A DNA stretch of 34,378 bases from Elusimicrobiota bacterium. Lineage in GTDB: Bacteria; Elusimicrobiota; Elusimicrobia; Elusimicrobiales; UBA9959. The notes beneath the pieces were generated by a model. That model had not been told where the DNA came from. It did no database searches and worked only from the letters and a program-made list of their open reading frames with translations. The stretch covers positions 1 through 34,378 of the forward strand of contig JAJUJA010000009.1 in NCBI GenBank assembly GCA_029267355.1, given 5' to 3'. A program made the translations under genes and the position numbers. Positions 7,869 through 25,242 of the stretch are shown here, piece by piece; positions within the stretch are counted from its first letter, which is position 1; each line of letters opens with the position of its first letter.

Positions 7869-7899
7869 AAAAAAGCCCCCGGTAACGGGGGCTTTTTTT
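7869..7899 (-). terminator. Intrinsic terminator ending the A-F cluster
   Basis: A perfect hairpin has a GC core GCCCCCG / CGGGGGC and a GTAA (plus strand) or TTAC (minus strand) loop. It is flanked by six A and seven T, so it can work in both directions. It starts 12 bases after the stop codon of gene F (7912), where a terminator of the minus-strand cluster is expected. Confidence 0.93.
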
Positions 7900-17460: not shown

Positions 17461-18630
17461 TCACTGATTAGGCAAACTTCTGCATCCGAGGAAATCGCAG
17501 CCGTAGACGACCACTTGATTATCCTTTTGGGCCACTATCAAAGTGTCCCCGTTTGAGTACTTGGCCGCCATTACATCTCCGCTGAGACTCACCTGATTGC
17601 ACAAATCGCCCAGTTCCGAGCATGATATGCTGCTGCTTTTCACCACATCTTCATTGGGATACAATTTATATTTATCCACGGCGCTGTCAAATGTTTCCCT
17701 GGCCTTTTTCTGCAATTCGTCTTCTTCTTCACCATCCTGGGAGTTAGAATTGCTCATGGCCCCGCCAAGACCTGAAAACATGGAATTAACCATACCCTTG
17801 GCCATGTCCTTTTTCATCTGATTGGCAAGACTGTCCTTGACCTTATCATCGGCTCCGCTGTTTGGATTATCCGTTTTAGGCTCGCCCGGCTCAGGCGCAT
17901 GAAGACCGCCTGTTTCTGCCGCTTTGAGATCCACAACCTCGCCTCTTATTTTGTCAAGCTTGGTAACCGCATCCGAATATTTGCCCTGCTTGGATCCGCC
18001 CATACCGCCTACAAAGCTTTGGTCCCACTTGAATTTGGCCTGTGAGGCGGAACCGCTTCTAAGGCCTTCTTTTATATTTGCCCCCATGTGATCAAGTCTT
18101 GAAAGAAGCTTTTGCGATTGAGGACTCTTGCCGGCATTCTGAAGAGATGAACCGGTTACGGTCAGGCCGCCCGAAGCCCCTCCGCCGGAAAAGCCGCCCG
18201 AAGCGCCCTGAGTTTTAGTGCCTGAACCGCCGGCGGAAGAAAGACCTCCTGAAATTGAGGACTTTATTTTTTCGGATGGGACGTAAGGAGAAGCAGATGA
18301 CAGCGAAGCCGTTTTAGGATAAAGTTTTTCCGCCTTTTCCTCAGGAGTAAGATTTGAGTCTTCCAAAGCGGCGTCAGGAAAAATTTTCTTTTCAAGCTCC
18401 CTGACAAATTTGGTTATGGCAGGGTCTATCTTTTCGCCGTCAACAAAACCCGTTGTTTTAAGAAGAGCAAACATCGCTTTTTTGGGAAATGAAGAATATT
18501 CAAAGGAGAAGCCGGGCCTGTCCTTAAGGTCTTCCACTCCTTTCATCATAAAAAATACCGACACGCTTCCCCCGAGCAGAAGGAAAACCAGCATTGATAC
18601 TATGAAAACCTTCCTTTTACTGTTGTTCAT
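17461..18630 (-). CDS. Gene A: N-anchored envelope protein with small Cys-containing C-terminal domain
   Basis: This 389-residue protein belongs to no family I recognise. It has a short basic tail, a membrane segment at about 8-28, a helical membrane-proximal part, a Gly/Ser-rich stretch (about 125-165, with SGGFSGGGASGG), a second helical part containing QSFVGGMGG (loosely like the aromatic-glycine motif of C-E), an acidic patch (DGEEEDE) and a C-terminal domain of about 70 residues with four cysteines (SCSELGDLC and CDFLGC). The frame extends to 18777, but that start lies upstream of the promoter at 18709-18737. The ATG at 18630, behind GGGG, fits better. It is separately promoted from B-F, and could be a regulated partner or a minor subunit. 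Confidence 0.78.
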   Translation of the reverse strand: MNNSKRKVFIVSMLVFLLLGGSVSVFFMMKGVEDLKDRPGFSFEYSSFPKKAMFALLKTTGFVDGEKIDPAITKFVRELEKKIFPDAALEDSNLTPEEKAEKLYPKTASLSSASPYVPSEKIKSSISGGLSSAGGSGTKTQGASGGFSGGGASGGLTVTGSSLQNAGKSPQSQKLLSRLDHMGANIKEGLRSGSASQAKFKWDQSFVGGMGGSKQGKYSDAVTKLDKIRGEVVDLKAAETGGLHAPEPGEPKTDNPNSGADDKVKDSLANQMKKDMAKGMVNSMFSGLGGAMSNSNSQDGEEEDELQKKARETFDSAVDKYKLYPNEDVVKSSSISCSELGDLCNQVSLSGDVMAAKYSNGDTLIVAQKDNQVVVYGCDFLGCRSLPNQ

Positions 18631-18666
18631 AAAGAACCCCAACAAAAAACATACCGCTTTATTATC

Positions 18667-18684
18667 CCCGCTGTAAAAAGCGGG
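18667..18684. repeat. Small hairpin in the leader of gene A
   Basis: CCCGCT and AGCGGG form a 6-bp stem with a 6-base loop between the predicted transcription start (about 18702) and the gene A ribosome binding site. It may stabilise the leader RNA. It has no T-run and is not a terminator. Confidence 0.5.
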
Positions 18685-18708
18685 AGAATAAACGCGATTT
18701 ACCTTTAA

Positions 18709-18737
18709 AGCATAGCAGAGAAAACAAAAAAATTCAA
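18709..18737 (-). promoter_or_regulatory. Extended -10 promoter for gene A
   Basis: On the minus strand, TTGAAT (18737-18732, 4 of 6) and TATGCT (18714-18709, 4 of 6) are 17 bases apart, with TGC directly before the -10. The TCTGCTAT core is identical to that of the promoter of gene B. Predicted initiation is near 18702. Confidence 0.65.
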
Positions 18738-18778
18738 CCCCCGACCGCTTTTTCTCTTTTCCGCACCAAAGGCTCATT

Positions 18779-18814
18779 TTTTCATTTTTGGGACGACCGT
18801 CCAGAAAATGAAAA
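18779..18814. promoter_or_regulatory. 36-base dyad upstream of the gene A promoter (possible operator)
   Basis: Two 17-base arms match at 15 positions around a 2-base centre: TTTTCATTTT-TG-GGACG, then AC, then CGTCC-AG-AAAATGAAAA. No T-run follows on either strand, so a terminator is unlikely. Its position about 42 bases upstream of the -35 box suits an activator site or upstream element. A separate perfect palindrome CAGACGTCTG lies at 18828-18837. The rest of this 253-base gap shows nothing else I can name. Confidence 0.55.
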
Positions 18815-18883
18815 GATAAAAACTGTACAGACGTCTGCGATATGATGAGTTAAGCGTTCACTGCTGATAAGACATGGATACGC

Positions 18884-19738
18884 TTATTGCTTTCGGCCTT
18901 TCGCTCTGTCTATCATATCTTCCATTTCCTTGAAATCTTTAGGAGATAAAAAAGAGCCTATGCCGGTCATGCCGTAATAGGCATGTTCTATAGGAGTGTC
19001 CGGGCATATATAGGAACCTCTGGCCACGCCTTTGGGATCTTTTTTCAGGCCCAGCCATAAAAGCCACGGCAGCATATCAGAGAAATTATCGGAGATAAGC
19101 TCCGGGGCATTGCTCCTCAACCTTTCAGGATGGCCAAAACCGTCCATTACTATGCCGCTGTGATAACCGTGAGCCTTGGCTGCCTGAACGTCTTTTTCTG
19201 TATCGCCTATAACATAAACCTGAAATTCATCAGACCTGCATTTGAGAAATTTCTCGGCTTCCCTTACAGCGCTTTCTATCATGTCCTCTCTTTTTTCATA
19301 ATCTCCGCCGAAACCGCCGAAGGAAAAATAATGAGAAAGGCCTGACGGCGCCAGTTTAAGATAAGCTCCTTCCTGAAAATTCCCCGTAGCCAGACCAAGA
19401 AAAACGTCTTTTTGAGAAGACAGGAATTTGAGTAACTTTTCAACGCCCTTTATTTTCAGGTACCTTTTATTGTTTACTGCGGCATTGACTTCGGAAGGCA
19501 GAATTTCAAGATATTTCTTCTTGAGCTTTAAAAACTCCTTCTCCTTGGGTTTTCTTTTGAAAGCGCAAATAAAAGCTCTGTTAAAATTGTCTCTGTCCGT
19601 TGAGCCCTGCAGCTCAAACTTTGAACAAATATTATCCGGCCCGCCGAATTCAACCACAGCCCTGTTTAAGGCTTTAAGCCCGCAGCCGCCGGCTTTAACC
19701 AAGGTTCCGTCAACATCGAACAGTATTACCTTTTTCAT
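18884..19738 (-). CDS. HAD-superfamily hydrolase (phosphoglycolate-phosphatase-like)
   Basis: This 284-residue cytoplasmic phosphatase has HAD motif I FDVDGT (D8 nucleophile, D10 acid/base), motif II in LATGN near residue 116-120, and motif IV GDTEKDVQAA at about 178-187. A helical cap lies between motifs I and II, as in the phosphoglycolate phosphatase/beta-phosphoglucomutase group. The last 55 residues are an extra tail with no clear motif. The substrate cannot be told from sequence. Its ATG at 19738 overlaps the end of hutI by 29 bases, so it is translated as the last gene of the long operon. AGGA sits about 10 bases upstream. No clear terminator follows; only a weak AAGCGT/ACGCTT pair spans the stop. 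Confidence 0.85.
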   Translation of the reverse strand: MKKVILFDVDGTLVKAGGCGLKALNRAVVEFGGPDNICSKFELQGSTDRDNFNRAFICAFKRKPKEKEFLKLKKKYLEILPSEVNAAVNNKRYLKIKGVEKLLKFLSSQKDVFLGLATGNFQEGAYLKLAPSGLSHYFSFGGFGGDYEKREDMIESAVREAEKFLKCRSDEFQVYVIGDTEKDVQAAKAHGYHSGIVMDGFGHPERLRSNAPELISDNFSDMLPWLLWLGLKKDPKGVARGSYICPDTPIEHAYYGMTGIGSFLSPKDFKEMEDMIDRAKGRKQ

Positions 19739-21464: not shown

Positions 21465-23108
21465 TCATTTCATCATCGGTATTTTGACTTTCTTTTCTTT
21501 GGCAAATTTCTTCGCCTTTTCATAGCCAGCGTCGGCATGACGCAAAACGCCCATACAGGGGTCATTTGTGAGAACTCTTTCAAGGCGTCTGTCCGTCTTT
21601 TTTTCACCGTCGCAAACAGTAACCTGACCGGCATGCAGCGAATAGCCCATGCCAACTCCGCCGCCGTGATGGAAGGAAACCCATGATGCGCCGCTGGCCG
21701 TATTGACCAGAGCGTTGAGTACCGGCCAATCTGCTATGGCGTCGGAGCCGTCTTTCATCGCTTCAGTCTCCCTGAAAGGACTGGCTACCGAACCAGAATC
21801 AAGATGATCGCGGCCTATGACTATGGGCGCGGAAATTTTGCCTTTTCTCACAGCATAATTGAATCTCAGCCCAAGCTCATGTCTTTCTCCGTAGCCCAGC
21901 CAGCATATTCTGGCCGGGAGGCCCTGAAATTTGACCTTTTCTCCGGCCATCTTTATCCATTTGACCATGCTTTCATTTTTGGGGAAAGTCTCAAGAGCAA
22001 GTTTATCCGTATAAGCTATATCTGAAGCATCGCCTGAAAGTGCGGCCCATCTGAAAGGCCCTTTGCCTTCGCAAAAAAGATCTCTTATATAAGCCGGGAC
22101 GAAACCGGGGAAATCATAGGCATTTTTCACGCCATGCTTATATGCCATGGTCCTTATATTGTTGCCGTAATCAAAGACCACGGCCCCTTTCTTCATAAAT
22201 CCCAGCATAGCTTCAACATGTTTAGCCATTGAGGCCATTGATTTTTTTACATATGCCTGAGGGTCTTTTTTTCTCAAAGCGGCGGCCTCTTTAAGCTTCA
22301 TCTTCTCAGGGATATATCCATTAAGTGGATCATGGGCCGAAGTCTGGTCTGTAAGCACATCTATCTTTACCCCTCTCCTAAGCATAAGAGGAAGCAGTTC
22401 GGCGCAATTGCCGAGCAGGCCTATTGAAATCGGCTTCTTCTCGCGAATATGCTTTTCCGCTATAGACAAAGCTTCATCCAAAGAGTCCGTCATTGTATCC
22501 AGATAGGCGGTTTTTAACCTCTTTTCTATTCTTTCAGGGTCAACCTCTATCATTATGGCCACACCGCCGTTCATAGTAACTGCCAAAGGCTGAGCGCCGC
22601 CCATACCGCCAAGCCCGCCTGAAACCACAAGTTTTCCCGCCAAATCGCTTTTGAAATGTTTTCTGGCGCAAGCGGCGAAAGTTTCATAGGTGCCCTGCAG
22701 TATGCCTTGTGTGCCTATGTAAATCCATGAGCCGGCAGTCATCTGGCCGTACATCATAAGCCCTTTTTTCTCAAGTTCGTCAAAAACTTCCCATTTCGCC
22801 CAGTTTCCGACAAGATTTGAATTGGCTATAAGGACCCGCGGGGCATCATCATGCGTTTTTATTATGCCTACAGGCTTGCCGGATTGAACAAGCAAAGTTT
22901 CATCATTCCCAAGTTTTTTCAGCGATTCCACTATCGAATTGAAACATGCCCAATTTCTTGCGGCTTTTCCGCGGCCGCCGTATACTATAAGGTCCTGAGG
23001 CCTTTCAGCCACCTCAGGATCCAGATTATTCATAAGCATTCTCAAGGCTGCTTCCTGATGCCAGCCCTTGCAGGAAATCTTTGAACCTCTTGGAGCTCTG
23101 ATTATCAT
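21465..23108 (-). CDS. hutU: Urocanate hydratase (urocanase)
   Basis: HutU converts urocanate to imidazolone propionate with a tightly bound NAD as electrophile. The 547-residue product has the family start ([21 protein letters not shown], given here shortened in meaning: a Trp-His-Gln-Glu segment at about 16-19), the NAD-binding [11 protein letters not shown] at 164-174, and later [11 protein letters not shown] and [11 protein letters not shown] segments typical of urocanase. Length is normal for the family. A GGAGG site precedes the ATG at 23108. It follows hutH by 39 bases, the largest gap in the long operon, and precedes yajQ by 16. Confidence 0.96.
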
Positions 23109-23147
23109 ATCTGCCTCCGAAAAAATGGAAATCGGCCTGTTTATATT

Positions 23148-24653
23148 TTACAAAAAAGCGCCGTTCCTTACAGCCGCAGCAATATTCTCCATTCTGCCCG
23201 AAAACTCAAAATCTCCCTCAGCCCGCGGAGAAAAGCGGTATATAGTATCCATAAATTTCTCAAGCGCAGGTGAACTCTTAAGCGGCCTGTGAAATTCTAT
23301 GCCGGCGGCGGCGGCCATCATTTCAACGGCGATTATGGCGGATACATTCCTTACGGTTTCCCTGAGCTTTAAGGCGGCATTCATGCCCATGCTGACAAAA
23401 TCCTCCTTATTTGCCGATGTAGGCAGAGAATCGGCTGAAGCGGGGTGTGAAAGAATTTTGTTTTCATTGCAAAGCGCGGCCGCTGTGACATGGGCTATCA
23501 TAAAGCCGGATTCAAGCCCCGGATTTTTGGCCAGAAACGGCGGCAGTATTTTAAAATCGCTTACAAGCTGCGCTATTCTGCGTTCGGATATATTTCCAAG
23601 CGCGGCCATATTTATAGCGGCAAAATCATAAATAAAGGAAAGCGCTTGGCCGTGGAAATTGCCGCCGGAAAAAGTTTCAACCTTCTTATTGTCAGCAAAT
23701 ACCAGCGGATTATCTGTAACGGCCGTAAATTCACGCTCCAAAGTCTGCTGGCAATGCATAAGATTGTCAAGCATAGGGCCCATTGCCTGAGGCGAGCATC
23801 TGAGACTGTAAGGATCCTGCACTCTCTTGTCATTTTTGGCATGAGACATTCTTATCTCGCTGCCTTCGAGAAGGACTCTTAATTTTTCAGCCACAAAAAG
23901 CTGGCCCGGATGCGGTTTAAGTCTGTGTATCTTTTCGTCAAAAGCGACCGGAGTGCCTTTCAAGGCGTCAACGGTCAAAGCCGCAGATTTTATAGATGTG
24001 TGAAACACGTTCAGGGCCTCAAGCAGAGCAAGTCCGCCGACAGCCTGCATGGCCTGAGTTCCGTTTATCAAAGCCAGGCCTTCTTTTTCCTTCAAAACTA
24101 GAGGCTTTATTCCCGCTTTTTTAAGGACAATCCTGGACGGTTTCCAGTCTTTTTCGCCTTCAAATCTGGCCAAACCTTCGCCTATAAGGCAAAGCGCCAT
24201 ATGCGCGCTGGGCGCCAAATCGCCGCTGGCGCCGACAGAGCCCTTCTGAGGTATGCGCGGCACTATCCTTTTGTTTAAAAATTCTATCATCGTCTTTACA
24301 AGAACCGGCCTGACCCCGCTGTGGCCTCTGGCCAGCTCGCCGGCTCTTATAAAAAGAAGCGCTCTCGCCTCTCTATCGCTCAGCGGCTCGCCGACGCCGC
24401 AGGCGTGGCTCCTTATCAAATTCAGCTGAAGCTTGTCCAAATTTTCGGAAGAGACGACTTCGCTGGCAAGCTGCCCGAAGCCAGTATTTATTCCGTAAAT
24501 TATTTTCCCGCTTTTCAAAAGCGATTCAAGCGCCTTTCTTGCAGAAAAAAGCTTCTTTTCTGCCGCGGCTGAAAGCTCAAATTTTGTTTTCGGGCCCAAA
24601 AGAGCGGGCAATTCCTCAAGAAGAAAAGATTCTCCAAGATAAAACTTTCCCAT
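23148..24653 (-). CDS. hutH: Histidine ammonia-lyase
   Basis: HutH removes ammonia from histidine to give urocanate. The 501-residue product has the Ala-Ser-Gly triad at 142-144 in GSVGASGDLAPSAH, which cyclises to the MIO cofactor. It also has YGINTGFG near 53-60, VQDPYSLRCSPQAMG and the SGGNFHGQ segment, all diagnostic of the family. The frame extends to 24674, but GGAGG four bases before the ATG at 24653 favours that start and leaves a 13-base gap after the exonuclease gene. Length is typical. It opens the hutH-hutU-yajQ-hutI group. Confidence 0.96.
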   Translation of the reverse strand: MGKFYLGESFLLEELPALLGPKTKFELSAAAEKKLFSARKALESLLKSGKIIYGINTGFGQLASEVVSSENLDKLQLNLIRSHACGVGEPLSDREARALLFIRAGELARGHSGVRPVLVKTMIEFLNKRIVPRIPQKGSVGASGDLAPSAHMALCLIGEGLARFEGEKDWKPSRIVLKKAGIKPLVLKEKEGLALINGTQAMQAVGGLALLEALNVFHTSIKSAALTVDALKGTPVAFDEKIHRLKPHPGQLFVAEKLRVLLEGSEIRMSHAKNDKRVQDPYSLRCSPQAMGPMLDNLMHCQQTLEREFTAVTDNPLVFADNKKVETFSGGNFHGQALSFIYDFAAINMAALGNISERRIAQLVSDFKILPPFLAKNPGLESGFMIAHVTAAALCNENKILSHPASADSLPTSANKEDFVSMGMNAALKLRETVRNVSAIIAVEMMAAAAGIEFHRPLKSSPALEKFMDTIYRFSPRAEGDFEFSGRMENIAAAVRNGAFL

Positions 24654-24666
24654 ATATCCTCCAGAA

Positions 24667-25242
24667 TTATTCAAGAGCTTTTATAAGCTCTCTTACGGTA
24701 GACACTCCGTCTTTTCTGAGCATAACCGTAAAATGCTCAAAAATCTTTCTTGTCATTTCTATATCGCTTGAAGCCCTGTGCCAATTTTCGCATGAAATTC
24801 CGAGACGCTTGGCGACTTCGCCCAGTCTGTTGCTTCTGAACTGCCCGAGCTTCACAGCCATTCTCCACGTATCCACGCAAGGAAAGGAGGGGAACTTAAA
24901 ACCTGCCCTTTCAAATTCTTTTTCAAGAAAAGCTATGTCAAAATTTACATTATGCCCCACCAGGATTGAGCCTTCAAGTCTGGATATTATAGCCGGAATA
25001 AGCGTATGAAAAAGCGGTTTATCGGCCACCATTTTATCGTCTATGCCGTTGAGCTTGACCACATCCGGCGGTATGGGAGTTTGCGGATTTACAAGTGAGG
25101 AAAAAAAATAAACCTTTTTAAAATTCCTGAATCCCGACATCGCTATTTCACAAATCCTGTCTTTTTTGCTTGAAAGGCCTGTGGTCTCCAGATCTATGAA
25201 AGTAAAAAGCGCGTCTTCTATAAGCATGCTCTTCAAATTCAT
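24667..25242 (-). CDS. DnaQ-like 3'-5' exonuclease (DEDDh)
   Basis: This 191-residue protein is an RNase T/DnaQ-fold exonuclease. The four acidic residues and the histidine of the DEDDh set are visible: D17 and E19 in FIDLETTG, D102 in GHNVNFD, and H155 with D160 in HRASSD. It is a stand-alone exonuclease without polymerase, helicase or UvrC domains, so it could be a proofreading-subunit paralogue or a general single-strand DNA or RNA trimming enzyme. Its ATG overlaps the macro-domain gene stop by four bases (ATGA). I do not assign dnaQ, because many genomes have several such proteins. Confidence 0.88.
   Translation of the reverse strand: MNLKSMLIEDALFTFIDLETTGLSSKKDRICEIAMSGFRNFKKVYFFSSLVNPQTPIPPDVVKLNGIDDKMVADKPLFHTLIPAIISRLEGSILVGHNVNFDIAFLEKEFERAGFKFPSFPCVDTWRMAVKLGQFRSNRLGEVAKRLGISCENWHRASSDIEMTRKIFEHFTVMLRKDGVSTVRELIKALE

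Follow-up and report, generated by a model that had tools for sequence, protein, structure and literature searches.

A 36-base palindrome upstream of a bacterial gene looks like a stray copy of the end of palindrome-bracketed units that carry a Cas2-like gene

The window, by which we mean the whole stretch of 34,378 nucleotides analysed here from an Elusimicrobiota genome, carries a large dyad at 18779-18814, between two genes of the minus strand. On one side lies the end of a gene for a HAD-family hydrolase (18884-19738, from the open reading frame list and a domain match), and on the other the promoter of gene A (17461-18630), whose product of 389 aa has no Pfam match. The start of gene A is at 18777 in the open reading frame list and at 18630 by conservation, and the latter is used here. 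Its promoter, TTGAAT-N17-TATGCT, occupies 18709-18737 on the minus strand; because the -35 box TTGAAT begins at 18737, the gap between dyad and box is 41 bases, close to the 42 or so of the original prediction. The gene A leader (18630-18692) holds the blocks GGGGATAATAAAGCGG and TTTTGGGG, conserved before the start in three species, and a short stem near 18668-18686. Elsewhere in the window, genes for urocanase and an aromatic amino acid lyase (21465-24674), near an amidohydrolase gene, likely form a histidine degradation cluster.

The dyad consists of two 17-base arms around a 2-base centre, with 15 of the 17 positions paired as originally described, and a covariance model of its copies, introduced below, matches 18777-18816. 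In its middle is the 8-mer ACGACCGT (18793-18800), a core type that is also found in palindromes bracketing genes of the PaaX_M (Cas2-like) family. Only two dyads in the window, this one included, reach its score or better, against a mean of 0.1 in 40 dinucleotide shuffles. The ten-base palindrome CAGACGTCTG at 18828-18837, singled out along with the dyad in the original prediction, is indeed present, but it is an ordinary short palindrome: the window has 38 of that length against a mean of 44.4 in 40 shuffles, and it was not seen beside the other copies of the dyad as far as their flanks were listed. On these shuffle counts the large dyad is above chance and CAGACGTCTG is not. A search for terminators reported no terminator-like site at 18779-18814, where a stem followed by a T-run is missing, and a Rho-independent terminator was rejected as a reading of the dyad, in agreement with the first assessment. 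The other of the two strong dyads, AAAAAAGCCCCCGGTAACGGGGGCTTTTTT at 7869-7898, looks like an ordinary bidirectional terminator.

It had been proposed that the dyad is the natural control point of gene A, and that its conservation upstream of gene A in relatives would be a way to check this. We compared the window's genome (G000) with the two other genomes of its genus (G001 and G002), where the gene A protein is 81% and 53% identical. In both congeners the DNA next to gene A is recognisable as the end of the same HAD gene, and the leader and promoter are conserved in all three genomes, with the promoter consensus TTGAAW-N17-TATNCT. Neither congener has the dyad upstream of gene A, nor anywhere else in its genome within 3 mismatches. 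Because the congeners keep gene A and its promoter without the dyad, the dyad does not look like gene A's switch, and the operator reading was set aside. The other suggested check, a search of the rest of the genome for the same dyad, gave three further copies on three other contigs (E 8e-8, 2e-5 and 9e-4). All, like the window's own, are upstream of some gene, as operators would be; no function common to their neighbours was seen.

The 36-base palindrome is thus a dispersed repeat, one of four scattered intergenic copies in its genome. A pattern scan of G000 finds these four places with no control matches, and a looser pattern finds the same four, but with two control matches; the majority sequence of the four copies is about TTGTCATTTTTNGGACGRCCGTCCNAAAAATGAAAAA. 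The genes adjoining them are gene A and the HAD hydrolase, an NTP transferase and a proton-translocating subunit, an OsmC-like protein, and an ankyrin protein, among which no common function was seen. Half-sites in G000 (perfect lone ones on C13, C51 and C59, and one with a single mismatch on C130) were considered as transposon ends and rejected: the other half is missing, and in the half-site scan of G000 a reversed pattern used as control gave no fewer matches (17 and 28 versus 18 and 17). A candidate with 3 mismatches in genome G024, which the covariance model did not report, was dropped as weak. In G263, a distant genome of the window's phylum, there is one perfect clean palindrome with a different core, CTATCATTTTGTTGACGTCAACAAAATGATAG (L058, about 212-247).

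An exact-pattern scan of 84,980 genomes, which would miss more diverged copies, returned seven contigs, all from a single other genome, the MAG SKS1.bin17, with ten copies closely similar in sequence to those of G000 in a 14-copy alignment. Two of the ten (L029, at 1935 and 2635) bracket an open reading frame for a winged-helix and Cas2-like protein, which matches the PaaX_M profile with an E of 1e-28; that genome has one PF20803 match. An AlphaFold model of this protein made without an alignment had a mean pLDDT of 42.7 and was left unused. The prfA gene of the same MAG is flanked by two further copies (L030, 156 and 1053) that have some 60 identical bases in common, exceeding the palindrome. 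We found no match to the pattern in viral contigs, none to the SKS1.bin17 protein in viral contigs or phages, none to the protein of locus L097 (see below) in plasmids, and no PHROGs match for any of four proteins tested.

A covariance model built from the 14 copies has matches in 2 of 340 genomes of the window's phylum and 34 of 390 genomes around SKS1.bin17; G000 is one of the 2, and SKS1.bin17 one of the 34. From their gene content and genome size, we take the set around SKS1.bin17 to be candidate-phyla bacteria. PF20803 is present in 224 of these 390 genomes, and it goes with the palindrome: 28 of the 34 genomes positive for the covariance model have it, compared to 196 of the 356 others (p = 0.0013). 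In the positive genomes the palindromes are often paired, 0.5-0.9 kb apart. Thirty loci have mostly the same kind of core (one is without a palindrome at the threshold used, and a few have another centre), while their arms vary by genome and yet are self-complementary, a property that proves little alone, since the covariance model demands pairing. Of 14 loci inspected that have two or more palindromes, 10 carry a gene of one family in between, and all 10 proteins of that family match PF20803; the N-terminal part of such proteins weakly matches the winged helices of MarR and PadR. Other cargo between palindromes includes prfA (L030 of SKS1.bin17) and a NUDIX-like gene (L070, in G448), the latter named from reading its sequence.

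The association can also be approached from the protein side. The sample here is 96 PaaX_M genes in 95 loci (30, plus 60, plus 4 of the window's phylum, plus L029), with 90 of the 95 loci drawn from the best-scoring part of the PF20803 match list; three (L029, L131 and L187) had come to light in the palindrome search, and 92 loci were not known beforehand to carry palindromes. A site was counted if at least 12 of 18 positions pair around a perfect centre, within 200 bases before or after the gene. By this measure a palindrome is present in 57 of 92 complete 5' flanks and 68 of 92 complete 3' flanks, on both sides of 47 genes and on at least one side of 78 of the 96. Control windows elsewhere in the same loci have a site in only 33 of 528 cases (Fisher p below 1e-32). 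Because those windows are partly coding, a gene-flank control was added, in which a site was present in 5 of 43 flanks upstream of other genes and in 5 of 50 downstream. A stricter, run-based score lowers the counts to 26 (5'), 29 (3') and 18 (both) of 96, against 8 of 339 in the control. Small Cas2-like genes with such a palindrome on one or both sides occur in many other bacteria.

A complete unit consists of a palindrome, a PaaX_M gene of roughly 140-260 codons and a matching palindrome, with arms that in some cases are perfect over 40-60 bases. With simple ORF calls, the sites are symmetrically placed, with a median distance of 41 nt to the start on the 5' side and 40.5 nt to the stop on the 3' side. 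By the same calls, 32 of the 68 3' sites face a convergent gene, of which they are therefore not the promoters. The two ends of a unit resemble each other: among 50 units with both sites, arm identity is 0.696 within a unit and 0.333 between units (figures that supersede 0.634 and 0.328 from a comparison without a common centre), and the core 8-mer is identical at both ends in 41 of the 50, where chance predicts 0.145. The commonest cores are ACGATCGT, GCGATCGC, GCTATAGC and ACGACCGT, the last being that of the window. On a tree of 57 proteins the core type changes 24 times, compared to 30.1 when shuffled (none of 300 shuffles as low); coarser core classes track the tree less (21 changes versus 24.6, 8 of 300 as low). 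The core type partly tracks the protein tree. At locus L144 the palindromes at 1046-1095 and 1791-1846 have an arm block in common, and the 3' one carries a second palindrome where its core is expected, as would result from insertion of one palindrome into another.

Such units also exist in the window's phylum. Four of its loci have a strong PaaX_M match, and two of these, L097 and L100, which come from the family of the window's genome, are bracketed by matching sites. A further 26 loci of the phylum with weaker PF20803 matches have no loop-free palindrome, and 5 have ordinary stems. The window palindrome fits the unit type, with a core ACGACCGT of the ACGNNCGT type and long arms pairing at 15 of 17 positions. 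PF20803 has no match in G000 (93.8% complete, as assembled) or in either congener, nor was a PaaX_M gene found between two copies in G000; the window copy is for this reason called solo and not a unit.

Units in the same orientation with conserved neighbors (L158/L178 and L137/L138) indicate that some are inherited in place. Elsewhere a unit is reversed between the same neighbors (L127 and L154 versus L150; L177 versus L199), or reversed with a neighbor common on one side only (L172 versus L182); protein identity among turned units is only 36-44%, at which separate acquisition and inversion look alike. In L217 a gene is accompanied by a solo palindrome where its relatives L127 and L150 have a unit. 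Stated by genome, the solo palindrome follows the gene in G462 and a unit follows it in G641 and G651, and also in G645, there with other ORFs intervening. None of the loci compared showed movement, excision or an exact empty site. Of the 43 positions at which the two palindromes of a unit disagree, 27 have changed on both arms with pairing kept (19 of 21 units, after two very different ones were dropped), a count that is inflated by the choice of high-scoring palindromes.

Taken together, the observation of a dyad stands and its reading as a gene A switch fails. The window dyad looks like a stray copy of the end of a palindrome-bracketed unit, and we judge it probable, with some reserve, that it belongs as a solo copy to a class of long palindromes whose complete units bracket PaaX_M (Cas2-like) genes. 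The best reading of the class would be a selfish palindrome of the REP/RAYT kind that relies on a Cas2-like protein. This protein would bind as a dimer centred on the palindrome's two-fold axis, its Cas2-like pair contacting the core, which is conserved, and its winged helices contacting the arms, which are specific to each unit. Cutting or nicking at that point, perhaps when the palindrome is extruded as a hairpin, might allow the palindrome, with or without the gene, to be copied to other intergenic places or exchanged between them, a role comparable to the one proposed for RAYT transposases at REP palindromes. Binding and cutting, like movement and an origin outside the species, are inferred. 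Such a palindrome would have its own dimeric protein and would move rarely, and solo copies would be left behind or spread apart from the gene. The small number of copies per genome (4 in G000 and 10 in SKS1.bin17) counts against this explanation, as REPs are described as high-copy.

The main rival is a small regulon, in which a PaaX-like winged-helix repressor would regulate its own gene from the 5' palindrome, and solo palindromes would be operators controlling other genes, gene A included. We regard this as unlikely, though it deserves serious weight. The resemblance of the N-terminal part to MarR and PadR regulators suggests it, as do the matches of three of four proteins to PaaX, below its cut-off, and the tracking of protein by core, in part; moreover, most solo copies in SKS1.bin17, and all four copies in G000, precede a gene on the same strand. 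A palindrome after the PaaX_M gene is nevertheless at least as frequent as one before it, and nearly half of the 3' palindromes face a convergent gene; the solo copy of SKS1.bin17 at L030 1053 itself sits between two convergent genes. The regulon would furthermore have neighbors with no common function seen, a gene A that is without the site in both congeners, and, in G000, sites with no such protein found.

It is highly improbable that the dyad works as an RNA hairpin, in leaders or where the HAD transcript ends, to attenuate transcription, stabilise mRNA or serve as a processing site. The dyad could fold if transcribed, and it lies about 69 bases beyond the HAD stop codon, but there is no terminator at it and no Rfam family matches the window at gathering scores. 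Nor do the arms favour wobble pairs: sense-strand mismatches in 84 palindromes around PaaX_M genes comprise 23 G.T, 25 A.C and 65 others, and in the better palindromes 10 G.U, 6 A.C and 11 others. With no clear preference for G.U over A.C, a DNA-level site appears more likely than RNA pairing. The original preference for a protein-binding or boundary site over a terminator survives to this extent. Hardly any credence is due to the idea that the copies are miniature inverted-repeat elements belonging to an ordinary insertion sequence, or true REPs that depend on a Y1 transposase. The copies are dispersed, intergenic and palindromic and G000 has one Y1_Tnp gene (C19:4189-4527), but that gene and the four copies are on different contigs, SKS1.bin17 has ten copies and no Y1_Tnp match, a Y1/RAYT partner sought in both genomes gave no fit, and PaaX_M is the family that recurs inside the palindrome pairs, at 10 of the 14 loci inspected.

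Returning to a selfish palindrome with a Cas2-like partner, we advance a broader proposal only tentatively, as possible and somewhat short of probable: Cas2-like winged-helix proteins might drive an undescribed class of mobile units of very small size, both in bacteria with small genomes and in the window's phylum, with perfect or near-perfect palindromes of conserved core serving both as unit ends and as independently spreading sites, and the window dyad would be such a site whose gene is now missing. If true, many genes that match Cas2 or PaaX in small bacterial genomes would be parts of palindrome-bracketed units instead of remnants of CRISPR or simple regulators. REP-like palindromes would then have a second protein family serving them, one with no relation to HUH transposases, and the finding would bear on how Cas2 came to work with palindromic repeats. 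A search of open-access PMC, preprints aside, found no report of palindromes associated with PaaX_M and no paper that has PaaX and Cas2 together; the association may be in print elsewhere.

Several known systems have features in common with these units. PaaX, the regulator of phenylacetate degradation, also has the PF20803 Cas2-like domain behind a winged-helix part. Three of four proteins score 19.9-40.3 bits against TIGR02277 (PaaX), far from its cut-off of 264.55, and the fourth does not match; the proteins here are shorter than the 279 positions of that model, and, unlike PaaX, have palindromes on both sides of their gene. CRISPR shares with the units a Cas2-like domain and an insert that has a palindromic repeat on either side. 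Scores against TIGR01573 (Cas2; cut-off 24.5) are 36.9, 28.3, 27.3 and 17.7 bits, and all four proteins match PADLOC Cas2 models; as three of four pass the NCBI cas2 cut-off and all four match PADLOC, public records may name such proteins Cas2. The differences are that a winged helix is fused to the domain here, that no spacer array was noticed in the loci, and that the insert is the gene itself. Integron cassettes resemble the units in having a single gene between palindromic sites, with the occasional other cargo noted above (prfA in L030, the NUDIX-like gene in L070), but in contrast to attC the site here is a palindrome with a loop of zero to two bases and a core of the ACGNNCGT type. One paper (PMC3710099) does no more than mention that integron cassettes can carry Cas2-like proteins.

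The closest working parallel is REP/REPIN with RAYT, where, as here, short intergenic palindromes are scattered in a genome and the same palindrome stands on both sides of one gene. The transposase and foot motif that define that system are missing here. A RAYT is a Y1 (HUH) transposase, whereas the protein here combines a winged helix and a Cas2-like domain, and no Y1 transposase gene flanked by the palindrome was found in G000 or SKS1.bin17. The REP foot is described as an unpaired GTAG or CGTC tetranucleotide (PMC3733652); neither occurs as a foot in the 14-copy alignment, and the ACGNNCGT core is central and paired. Arms that can be perfect over 40-60 bases are likewise unlike those of REPs. 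The likeness extends to the genes: RAYT copies within a genome are distinct, according to another paper (PMC3116915), and so are PaaX_M copies, with a mean identity of 47% and a maximum of 83% in 71 within-genome pairs. In SKS1.bin17 the arrangement expected of a RAYT, a bracketed gene together with solo copies, is seen with a different kind of protein: one bracketed PaaX_M gene and eight other copies of the palindrome.
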